Origin: a virus
Virus record (IMG/VR): IMGVR_UViG_3300002835_000131
Span: 1-64,000 of that record
Strand: one strand, 5' to 3'
DNA length: 64,000 nucleotides
The position numbers and the translations under genes are program-made. The notes under the pieces are model-generated. The model was given only the letters and a program-made list of their open reading frames with translations. It searched no databases and was not told the origin of the DNA. This document shows positions 1 through 8,529 of this stretch, piece by piece; the stretch's first letter is position 1; each line of letters begins with the position of its first letter.

Positions 1-137
1 TAGGTGTAGAATTAGGTGAAAAAGATTTTGAAGAGTATAATGATGAGGATTTTGAATTAGATGAAGATGGAGATCCTGATATAGATATGTTAAAAGAATC
101 AAGTAAAATAGTAATAATTAATGGGGGTATGTTTTAA
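1..137 (+). CDS. 3' end of an acidic hypothetical protein (partial)
   Basis: The frame is open from the window edge (first complete codon at position 3) to a TAA at 135-137. The 44 visible residues are strongly acidic (16 Asp/Glu) and end in a short hydrophobic tail, IVIINGGMF. The gene starts outside the window. Its last codons form the left arm of a terminator hairpin. No family is recognised. Confidence 0.7.
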   Translation, partial: GVELGEKDFEEYNDEDFELDEDGDPDIDMLKESSKIVIINGGMF

Positions 138-146
138 CCCCCATTT
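120..146 (+). terminator. Intrinsic terminator overlapping a stop codon
   Basis: AATGGGGGT and ACCCCCATT form a 9-bp stem around the loop ATGTTTTA, followed by a T/A-rich run. The stem contains the last codons and stop of the preceding gene. The -33 TTTG of the next promoter begins within its right arm. Confidence 0.75.
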
Positions 147-175
147 GGCTTTTTAAATAATTTTTATTATATTTA
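144..175 (+). promoter_or_regulatory. Bacteroidota-type promoter P1
   Basis: TTTG at 144-147, a 20-nt spacer and TATATTTA at 168-175 match the TTTG / TAnnTTTG consensus of the Bacteroidota primary sigma factor. It would drive the gene at 220. Confidence 0.85.
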
Positions 176-446: not shown

Positions 447-478
447 TTTGGAAAGTTAAATAATTTTTATTATATTTA
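447..478 (+). promoter_or_regulatory. Bacteroidota-type promoter P2
   Basis: TTTG at 447-450, 20-nt spacer, TATATTTA at 471-478. It starts just after the stop of the preceding gene and serves the gene at 530. Confidence 0.85.
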
Positions 479-928: not shown

Positions 929-952
929 TTAAGGGAGGGTTAAATATGTTTG
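929..952 (+). repeat. 24-nt direct repeat, copy 1 (terminator-promoter module)
   Basis: The 24 nt at 929-952 recur exactly at 1547-1570. The copy contains the left arm of a hairpin, the loop and the TTTG of the following promoter. This indicates that terminator-promoter units were duplicated along with the small genes. Confidence 0.85.
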
Positions 953-960
953 ACCCTCCC
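933..960 (+). terminator. Terminator hairpin with promoter -33 element in its loop
   Basis: GGGAGGGT (933-940) pairs with ACCCTCCC (953-960). The loop TAAATATGTTTG carries the TTTG of the next promoter. A T-rich run (ATTAATTTTTATT) follows. Confidence 0.8.
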
Positions 961-980
961 ATTAATTTTTATTATATTTA
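949..980 (+). promoter_or_regulatory. Bacteroidota-type promoter P3
   Basis: TTTG at 949-952, 20-nt spacer, TATATTTA at 973-980. It overlaps the right half of the preceding terminator hairpin and serves the gene at 1020. Confidence 0.85.
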
Positions 981-1268: not shown

Positions 1269-1300
1269 TTTGGCCTTCGGGCCATTCTTTATTATATTTA
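1269..1300 (+). promoter_or_regulatory. Bacteroidota-type promoter P4
   Basis: TTTG at 1269-1272, 20-nt spacer, TATATTTA at 1293-1300. The spacer contains the hairpin at 1271-1284. It serves the gene at 1319. Confidence 0.85.
1271..1284 (+). terminator. UUCG-tetraloop hairpin inside a promoter spacer
   Basis: TGGCC-TTCG-GGCCA forms a 5-bp stem closed by the very stable C(UUCG)G tetraloop and is followed by the T-rich run TTCTTTATTATATTT. It is a plausible intrinsic terminator for the gene at 1020 and also the upstream part of the next promoter. An identical 14-mer recurs at 1851-1864. Confidence 0.7.
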
Positions 1301-1546: not shown

Positions 1547-1570
1547 TTAAGGGAGGGTTAAATATGTTTG
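1547..1570 (+). repeat. 24-nt direct repeat, copy 2
   Basis: Exact copy of 929-952. The sequence after it has diverged, so the hairpin here (1549-1578) has one G-T pair. Confidence 0.85.
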
Positions 1571-1578
1571 GCTCTCTT
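1549..1578 (+). terminator. Terminator hairpin with -33 element in its loop
   Basis: AAGGGAG (1549-1555) pairs with CTCTCTT (1572-1578) in seven pairs, one of them G-T. The loop holds the TTTG of promoter P5. The downstream sequence is T-rich. Confidence 0.6.
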
Positions 1579-1598
1579 ATTATTCTTTATTATATTTA
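1567..1598 (+). promoter_or_regulatory. Bacteroidota-type promoter P5
   Basis: TTTG at 1567-1570, 20-nt spacer, TATATTTA at 1591-1598. It serves the gene at 1640. Confidence 0.85.
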
Positions 1599-1848: not shown

Positions 1849-1880
1849 TTTGGCCTTCGGGCCAATCTTTATTATATTTA
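1849..1880 (+). promoter_or_regulatory. Bacteroidota-type promoter P6
   Basis: TTTG at 1849-1852, 20-nt spacer containing a UUCG hairpin, TATATTTA at 1873-1880. It serves the gene at 1901. Confidence 0.85.
1851..1864 (+). terminator. UUCG-tetraloop hairpin, second copy
   Basis: TGGCC-TTCG-GGCCA, identical to 1271-1284 and in the same place relative to the promoter elements, followed by AATCTTTATTATATTT. Confidence 0.7.
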
Positions 1881-2225: not shown

Positions 2226-2257
2226 TTTGGCCTCGCCATGAATTGATGTTATATTTA
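2226..2257 (+). promoter_or_regulatory. Bacteroidota-type promoter P7
   Basis: TTTG at 2226-2229, 20-nt spacer, TATATTTA at 2250-2257. It serves the two-gene unit at 2276 and 2424. Confidence 0.85.
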
Positions 2258-4756: not shown

Positions 4757-5191
4757 ATGAAAAAAGAAATTATTATTGCTCAAAAAAACAAAGATTTAAT
4801 CATCACAAACTATAGTGGTGATAGTATGTGTGGTGAAGGTAAGTACAGAGTTATAACAAAATGTAAAGCTGGGTTTATGGTTACAAGTGTTAAACAGGCT
4901 AAAAGTGCGATTGATGTGTTTCGTAGTTATAAAATTAAACATGTACATTCGATTGCTTTTATAAAAGAAAATGATAAGTTAGGTGGGTATGATTTTATGG
5001 TTTACGCTCGTGTAGGTAAAAAAGTATGGATTGAGGAAGATTTATTACGTGAGTTAGAGATAGGTGATATTAATCAGAGTCTATATAATACAGCTTTATA
5101 TTCTCAAGAACAATACAATAAAGTAAATGCTAAGTCATGGGCAAGTAAAGCATATGTGATGAATGGTTCGTTTGAATTTAGTGAGGCCTGA
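4757..5191 (+). CDS. Early hypothetical protein, 144 aa
   Basis: No family is recognised. Mixed alpha/beta, beginning MKKEIIIAQKNKDLIITNYS, with Cys at about residues 25 and 36 and a C-terminal half of helices (WIEEDLLRELEIGDINQSLY). The size and regular strand pattern suggest a stable globular domain. It ends with TGA, which shows that TGA functions as a stop in this genome. Monocistronic behind P13. Confidence 0.65.
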   Translation: MKKEIIIAQKNKDLIITNYSGDSMCGEGKYRVITKCKAGFMVTSVKQAKSAIDVFRSYKIKHVHSIAFIKENDKLGGYDFMVYARVGKKVWIEEDLLRELEIGDINQSLYNTALYSQEQYNKVNAKSWASKAYVMNGSFEFSEA

Positions 5192-5223
5192 TTTGGCCTC
5201 GCTAATAATTGATGTTATATTTA
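5192..5223 (+). promoter_or_regulatory. Bacteroidota-type promoter P14
   Basis: TTTG at 5192-5195 immediately after the preceding stop, 20-nt spacer, TATATTTA at 5216-5223. It serves the interrupted gene at 5243 and the genes after it. Confidence 0.85.
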
Positions 5224-5242: not shown

Positions 5243-5377
5243 ATGAAAATATTAAACATTTTAGATATACCAGGTAACGAGTTAGTAGAAGTGTTATGAA
5301 TCGATGATAATGAAATCGAGTTAATACCGATACAAGAGTTTATTAGTAAGTATGGAGTAGACAAATTAAATAAATAA
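5243..5377 (+). pseudogene. Small early gene interrupted by an in-frame TGA
   Basis: ATG at 5243 follows promoter P14 in the normal context (AAACAGATATG). The frame encodes 18 residues (MKILNILDIPGNELVEVL), meets TGA at 5297-5299, then continues for 25 good codons (IDDNEIELIPIQEFISKYGV...) to TAA at 5375-5377. A single TGG-to-TGA change would explain it. A truncated gene, programmed readthrough and a sequencing error remain possible. Genome-wide recoding of TGA is unlikely because neighbouring genes end in TGA. Confidence 0.6.
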
Positions 5378-8333: not shown

Positions 8334-8405
8334 CTCCTTAGGTAGAAATATATGAATAAACAACCCGTCACGGTATGTTCATAGAACAGGAGTGAACTAA
8401 GGAGA
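8334..8405 (+). ncRNA. Structured, tRNA-sized RNA element inside the tRNA cluster
   Basis: CTCCTTAG (8334-8341) pairs with CTAAGGAG (8397-8404). Nested inside are TATGAA (8351-8356) with TTCATA (8378-8383) and CCG (8365-8367) with CGG (8371-8373). The outer helix plus the next A gives a 72-nt unit, the size of a tRNA with an acceptor-like stem, but no canonical D-arm or TTCRA T-loop is visible. It could be a decayed tRNA or an unrelated structured RNA. Confidence 0.5.
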
Positions 8406-8409
8406 AAAT

Positions 8410-8529
8410 AGTTAGGTGGCGGAATAGTAGACGCAACAGGTAAGTTAACGGAATTATTAATTCCATAAGGCCATTAATTCCGAGATGTAAGAGAAATACA
8501 TCATACAGGTTCAAATCCTGTCCTAACTA
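8410..8529 (+). tRNA. Abnormal class II tRNA (Leu/Ser-like), 120 nt with enlarged anticodon region
   Basis: Acceptor AGTTAGG/CCTAACT (8410-8416 / 8522-8528), TG and a D-arm with GCG/CGC and the Leu-like AATAGTAGA, long variable arm GATGTA/TACATC (8484-8489 / 8497-8502), and T-arm ACAGG-TTCAAAT-CCTGT (8505-8521). Between D-arm and variable arm lie 48 nt instead of 17. They fold into AT-rich hairpins (for example CGGAATTA/TAATTCCG) and contain no clear 7-nt anticodon loop. An insertion or intron of about 31 nt is implied. The identity cannot be read safely. Leu is the best guess. Confidence 0.7.

Follow-up and report, generated by a model that had tools for sequence, protein, structure and literature searches.

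The idea of fusing a terminator to a promoter has precedent in the promoter-early stem-loops (PeSLs) of T4-like phages (Arbiol et al. 2010, doi 10.1093/gbe/evq006; Comeau et al. 2014, doi 10.1093/gbe/evu129; both as cited in PMC4503421), which are described as motifs that combine promoter with terminator and mediate shuffling. PeSLs are the closest known kind to the element considered here: each is a small cassette that joins a stem-loop terminator to an early promoter, lies among short uncharacterized genes in a T4-like phage, and has shuffled neighbors. They differ in that the hairpin and U-tract of the present element lie inside a Bacteroidota-type promoter and share bases with both of its boxes, and in that these boxes are not those of enterobacterial PeSLs.

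A DNA-similarity search for the exact element in named phages returned the hairpin half only, in Klebsiella and other T4-like phages. Klebsiella phage Matisse has the same 20-nt hairpin, with a terminator annotation; there the identical TGGCCTTCGGGCCATT(C/T)TTT hairpin and T-run leads directly into the late-promoter-like TATAAATA. A terminator of sequence GGCCTTCGGGCC is predicted in T4-like phage UFV13 (PMC5931544). The Matisse hairpin is thus followed immediately by a promoter, but TATAAATA, as a T4 late promoter, does not require a -35 box and the hairpin precedes it, whereas the hairpin described below is nested between two required boxes.

On the promoter side, the primary-sigma promoter of Flavobacterium psychrophilum has its -7 box at -12 to -5 (PMC9723704). 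The phage promoters share with Flavobacterium sigma-A promoters the form of this T-rich box (TAnnTTTG, -12 to -5) and a TTG-type upstream box (PMC9723704), but their -7 box, TATATTTA, ends in A and not in the G of the host consensus, their -33 box is extended to TTTGGC, and their spacer can hold a hairpin. Recycling termination and reinitiation by bacterial RNA polymerase (PMC11347151) offers a further likeness, here an idea: a terminator beside a promoter would favor reinitiation by polymerase retained on the DNA.

Results

Phage affinity and promoter array. The window, by which we mean the whole 64,000-nt stretch analyzed (positions 1 to 64,000 of IMG/VR record IMGVR_UViG_3300002835_000131), belongs to a virus record of 74,176 bases with 29% GC. 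It encodes a large terminase subunit (TerL) that matches T4-type terminases and whose nearest named relative, at 59% identity over the whole protein, is that of Flavobacterium phage immuto, which also has the T4-type markers Gp20 and Gp23; TerL proteins from 11 element-bearing contigs are 57 to 96% identical. The TerL comparison and the immuto markers place the element in T4-like phages. Second only to immuto among named phages is Microcystis phage Mel-JY01 (PP395634), with a terminase 50% identical to that of the window and a cyanobacterium as its listed host. From the promoter type and the kinship to immuto, we infer Bacteroidota hosts for the contigs that carry no host label.

A plus-strand array of short open reading frames (ORFs) fills the first 6.6 kb of the window, and each of its units opens with TTTG-N20-TATATTTA. 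Shuffled sequence would give 0.95 matches to this predicted promoter; the window has 17 perfect plus-strand copies, 16 of which fall between 144 and 6611, standing before short ORFs. With a TTTG -33 box, a -7 box of the TAnnTTTG form except for its final A, and fixed spacing between the two, the layout fits the Bacteroidota primary-sigma (sigma-A) promoter as far as can be judged from the boxes. Strong hairpins are unevenly distributed over two spacer classes drawn by eye (five of seven T-rich spacers, one of ten GATG spacers; Fisher P = 0.018), and 11 of the 17 perfect copies have none. Single-gene units had been proposed for this array, but not every unit conforms, since the one beginning at 2226 contains two ORFs.

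Three further observations concern the coding content. At the GATG-class promoters, ATG-TTA-TAT-TTA at 2246, 3130, and 4435 shares the reading frame of the ORF that follows, which thereby gains an apparent MLYL start upstream of the predicted start site. The ORF behind the 5192 promoter (MKILNILDIPGNELVEVL..., window positions 5243 to 5377) is broken by an in-frame TGA, and its homologue is intact, at 44 amino acids, in loci L090 and L147. Within a tRNA cluster, positions 8401 to 8512 hold a Leu-type tRNA-like sequence with a long variable arm, for which ARAGORN made no call.

Two promoters with a nested hairpin. The original prediction located TGGCC-TTCG-GGCCA at 1271 and 1851, each followed by a T-rich run, and these coordinates are correct (Table 1). 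It placed the hairpin between the -33 and -7 elements, which holds for its general position, but the stem begins inside the -33 box, taking in the T and G of TTTG plus the GG that had been proposed to double as stem. Both hairpins close on a C(UUCG)G tetraloop and are followed by TTCTTTATTATATTTA (element 1) or TCTTTATTATATTTA (element 2); their energies are -7.8 kcal/mol at 1269 and -8.7 kcal/mol at 1849 (P = 0.01 and P < 0.004, respectively, against 300 shuffled spacers). With stems of only 5 to 6 bp and T tails in which C and A break the run, these elements may stop transcription incompletely. The nested form is carried by 2 of the 17 window promoters and by about a tenth of related promoters. 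The intergenic gaps that hold the elements, 53 nt (1266 to 1318) and 57 nt (1844 to 1900), resemble those of hairpin-less neighboring units (49 to 63 nt), and most array promoters lack a strong hairpin; the suggestion that the array has almost no noncoding DNA was therefore overstated.

Table 1. Promoters, hairpins, and predicted transcript ends in the window, with two examples from phage immuto
Feature	Position	Strand	Basis or remark
Terminator-like hairpin AATGGGGG...CCCCCATT	120..145	+	Hairpin scan, fold; 3' end overlaps -33 box of 144-175
Promoter TTTGGC...TATATTTA abutting this hairpin	144..175	+	Pattern scan
Promoter with T-rich spacer, without strong hairpin	447..478 (also 5738)	+	Pattern scan, folding
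Hairpin GGGAGGGTTAAA-TATG-TTTGACCCTCCC	933..960	+	Scan, 12 pairs; whole-context fold -22.7 kcal/mol, z -5.5
Promoter TTTGACC-N-TATATTTA overlapping this hairpin	949..980	+	Pattern scan; -33 TTTG 949-952
Fused element 1	1269..1300	+	TTTG-N20-TATATTTA pattern, hairpin scan, folding
Element 1, -33 box TTTGG	1269-1273	+	Pattern scan
Element 1, hairpin TGGCC-TTCG-GGCCA	1271-1284	+	Hairpin scan
Element 1, T-rich tail	1285-1300	+	Sequence
Element 1, -7 box TATATTTA	1293-1300	+	Box position after PMC9723704
Element 1, predicted 3' end of upstream mRNA	about 1291-1293	+	Prediction
Element 1, predicted transcription start site (TSS)	about 1305	+	Prediction; downstream ATG at 1319
Hairpin GGGAGGGTTAAA-TATG-TTTGGCTCTCTT	1551..1578	+	Scan, 12 pairs; whole-context fold -11.5 kcal/mol, z -2.9
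Promoter overlapping this hairpin	1567..1598	+	Pattern scan; -33 TTTG 1567-1570
Fused element 2, with TTTGG -33 box	1849..1880 (box 1849-1853)	+	Pattern and hairpin scan, folding
Element 2, hairpin TTGGCC-TTCG-GGCCAA	1850-1865	+	Core TGGCC(TTCG)GGCCA 1851-1864, one pair longer
Element 2, -7 box	1873-1880	+	Pattern scan; ATG at 1901
Promoter, GATG-spacer class, hairpin-poor	2226..2257	+	Pattern scan, folding
Other GATG-spacer promoter copies	2579, 2841, 3110, 3417, 4415, 4703, 5192, 6580, 51638		Pattern scan, folding
Hairpin TTAGTGAGGCC-TGATTT-GGCCTCGCTAA	5178..5205	+	11 pairs; -21.5 kcal/mol, z -5.6
immuto, AGTTGCCTC-TTCG-GAGGCAATTTCC-TATATTTA	67985		
immuto, AAAAGAGTTGC-TTAACC-GCAGCTCTTTTCT-TATCTTTA	37318		

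Longer hairpins around the -33 box. In a second form, represented in the window by the promoters at 949, 1567, and 5192, a longer hairpin takes up the -33 box in its loop or its 3' arm. Two of these hairpins had been noticed earlier, at 933-960 and at 1549-1578 (properly 1551-1578), as holding TTTG in the loop; the hairpins are there, but in the full fold TTTG pairs in the inner 3' arm, and to count it as loop the nearby A-T pairs have to be ignored. The third, at 5178-5205, had been missed: its loop holds the stop codon TGA of the upstream ORF (5189-5191) and the TTT of the -33 box of the 5192-5223 promoter, a good T tail is absent after it, and a related hairpin occurs at position 603 of L090. 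Hairpins of the form GGTTAAA...TTTGGCC with a stop codon in the 5' arm are in excess when strong (5 against 0.1 to 0.7 expected), and weak ones show no excess in the same test.

Spacing is conserved in two independent stem classes. The pattern TTTGGCCTTCGGGCC-N8-14-TATATTT occurs in 69 stretches of IMG/VR; the same hairpin with its -7 box shifted 16 nt further off occurs in none there, and the TTTGGCCTTCGGGCC hairpin-promoter has no match in 84,980 bacterial and archaeal genomes. An independent class with the stem GGCTCC/GGAGCC (TTTGGCTCC-N3-5-GGAGCC-N2-7-TATATTT) yielded 72 IMG/VR stretches, none in IMG/VR at the wrong spacing, and one match in the bacterial and archaeal genomes, in a bacterial metagenome-assembled genome (MAG). 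In all distinct elements from viral loci (52 and 61 in the two classes), the length from TTTGG to TATATTT is exactly 31 nt, although the scan patterns of both classes permit several lengths, which indicates that hairpin and promoter spacing are both kept. Loop and tail lengths compensate for each other (5+4 in 47, 4+5 in 13, and 3+6 in 1); the sole further combination, 3+4, was seen once, in a 29-nt element as long as the bacterial MAG match. We set the energy cutoffs, the division into two spacer classes, and the threshold on GC pairs while viewing the data, and the shifted-spacing scans are the controls that this affects least. The sequence comparisons in related viral contigs show the nested hairpin-promoter to be a selected architecture.

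Hairpins and T tails in a promoter-only sample. We assembled 250 nonredundant promoters by a hairpin-blind promoter scan and from long stretches of related contigs, some of which had first been found via the hairpin pattern, so that the sample is blind per promoter and not per contig. Stems with at least four G-C pairs that include the -33 GG occur in 27 of the 250, against 1.8 after shuffling the spacer and 0.5 after permuting columns; because column permutation preserves base composition at each position, the latter excess amounts to covariation. Directly after these GC-rich hairpins the T-tail score is -3.16, compared with -1.62 at matched offsets in hairpin-less promoters (P of about 1e-11), and scores of -2.5 or lower follow 85% of GC-rich stems versus 21% at matched offsets. 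The anatomy of an intrinsic terminator, a GC hairpin directly followed by a U-tract, is thus present in silico. T content at a fixed spacer offset was nonsignificant in unbiased sets (P = 0.09 in one) because stem lengths differ, and the tail was then measured from the end of the hairpin. Similarly, mean folding energy along all promoters shows just a small excess, because nested hairpins are a minority.

In the same 250 promoters, the distance from the -7 box to the ATG is bimodal, at 4 to 6 nt in 32, 7 to 11 nt in 2, and at least 12 nt in nearly all others (L228 933, minus strand, and L137 3519, plus strand, are examples of the promoters). With the box at -12 to -5, an ATG 4 nt past it would lie at +1, which predicts leaderless mRNAs.

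The layout recurs in an isolated phage. Phage immuto (NC_055915) has different promoter boxes, GTTGC and TATMTTTA, and 8 of the 31 promoters found in it fold to -10 kcal/mol or below in the 36 nt ahead of the -7 box, against 0.2 expected. Its -33 TTG belongs to the 5' arm in most strong hairpins and to the loop at 68738. With other boxes and other stems, these hairpins indicate that the layout recurs in unrelated sequence.

Discussion

A probable terminator and promoter in one piece. We consider it likely that the element nests an intrinsic terminator within a promoter of the Bacteroidota sigma-A type, at which the host polymerase would both terminate and initiate. The fusion itself is well supported by the excess of hairpins, the T tail paired with them, the invariant spacing, the independent stems, and the immuto layout. 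Of the original proposal that one piece ends one gene and starts the next, the fused anatomy has therefore held up comparatively, while termination and initiation are what we infer from it; a single 32-base piece probably serves both as the end of one message and as the start signal of the following one.

In the proposed mechanism, the -33 box TTTGG would contribute to the 5' arm of a short GC hairpin, with the spacer supplying loop and 3' arm, and the U-tract would consist of the remaining spacer and the T-rich -7 box (TTATATTTA). Polymerase that has transcribed the upstream gene would meet hairpin and U-tract and stop near the -7 box, with release 7 to 9 nt past the stem, at roughly -14 to -12 in the numbering of the next gene. 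In double-stranded form, these 32 bp would act as the next gene's promoter, with a start 5 nt beyond the -7 box. The upstream message would then end about a dozen bases (12 to 14 nt) before the next start site, and the new transcript, beginning downstream of the hairpin, would not contain it. An extension of this scheme, in which polymerase terminating in the U-tract is released onto the next -7 box and reinitiates there, so that handed-on polymerases transcribe a chain of single genes, strikes us as improbable; if it were true, every gene would get its own mRNA, with levels coupled.

Other readings of the hairpin. The spacer palindrome could instead act at the DNA level, as an operator or structural site (repressor or activator binding, a cruciform, a recombination substrate) that regulates the promoter, with RNA termination incidental. 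Escherichia phage RB49 (NC_005066; about 104 kb scanned, loci L312 to L314) lends this some weight: 5 of 60 sigma-70-type promoters have a perfect 7- to 8-bp hairpin exactly between -35 and -10, e.g., TTGACAGGGGATCGGTGATCCCCTATACT, against 0.66 expected, and no T-run accompanies these hairpins in the part scanned, which shows that spacers can hold a palindrome for some other reason. Weak TTGG-N4-CCAA repeats also occur in some Bacteroidota-phage promoters that are located between divergent genes. A spacer hairpin therefore has precedent in RB49, where 8 of the 60 promoters have a T-run terminator upstream of the -35 box, but a terminator nested in the promoter, with a U-tract and using bases of both boxes, was not seen in those roughly 104 kb. 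Unlike one operator, moreover, the stems of the elements vary widely (GGCC, GGCTCC, GGAGCCCC, and TTGCCTC in immuto); their loops are often of UUCG or GNRA type, and the T tail is tied to one side of the hairpin. Among stems of the 5-pair class, deviations from Watson-Crick pairing comprise five G.U and zero A.C, small numbers that nevertheless point to an RNA transcribed from the plus strand. Of 81 GC-rich hairpin promoters, 80 follow a tandem gene and none is divergent, compared with 15 divergent among the 279 remaining promoters, a tandem preference that is suggestive only. We accordingly regard a DNA-level role as unlikely.

Less probable still is that the hairpin serves as a stabilizer of mRNA 3' ends, or as a processing site, on read-through transcripts. 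The stop codon of the preceding ORF often lies a few nucleotides before it, and 3' exonucleases are blocked by stable UUCG hairpins; for such a role, a T tail would be unnecessary, yet it is coupled to the hairpin. Chance, by which the G and C of a conserved TTTGGC box beside a T-rich spacer would yield occasional hairpins, might account for the weak hairpins of most array promoters and the small excess in mean folding energy, but as the origin of the GC-rich class it is refuted by the stem excess (27 against 0.5 to 1.8), the spacing controls (69 and 72 copies against none), and immuto.

Nested elements and probable gene exchange. Beyond their likely role as terminator-promoters, the elements probably also act as exchange junctions for neighboring genes. 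The window, L011, and L062 differ from one another by insertion, loss, and reordering of short genes; most of the junctions carry elements, and the hairpin that follows the gene MKKFTHENV is kept with it in all three, the next gene differing each time. In a wider test, linkage of the hairpin to the gene before it and to the gene after it came out alike, at about 61%, a result biased by how the loci were fetched.

The nested layout illustrates how strongly regulatory DNA can be compacted, in that the same bases would have to serve promoter recognition as a duplex and form hairpin and U-tract as RNA, and the constant spacing makes both constraints visible at once. Because an isolated phage, immuto, shares the layout, it is open to experiment. 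Such elements would supply compact parts for Bacteroidota genetics, would offer a natural system for the recycling of polymerase from terminator to promoter, and would be a Bacteroidota counterpart to the PeSL cassettes, which are believed to drive the reshuffling of genes among T4-like phages.
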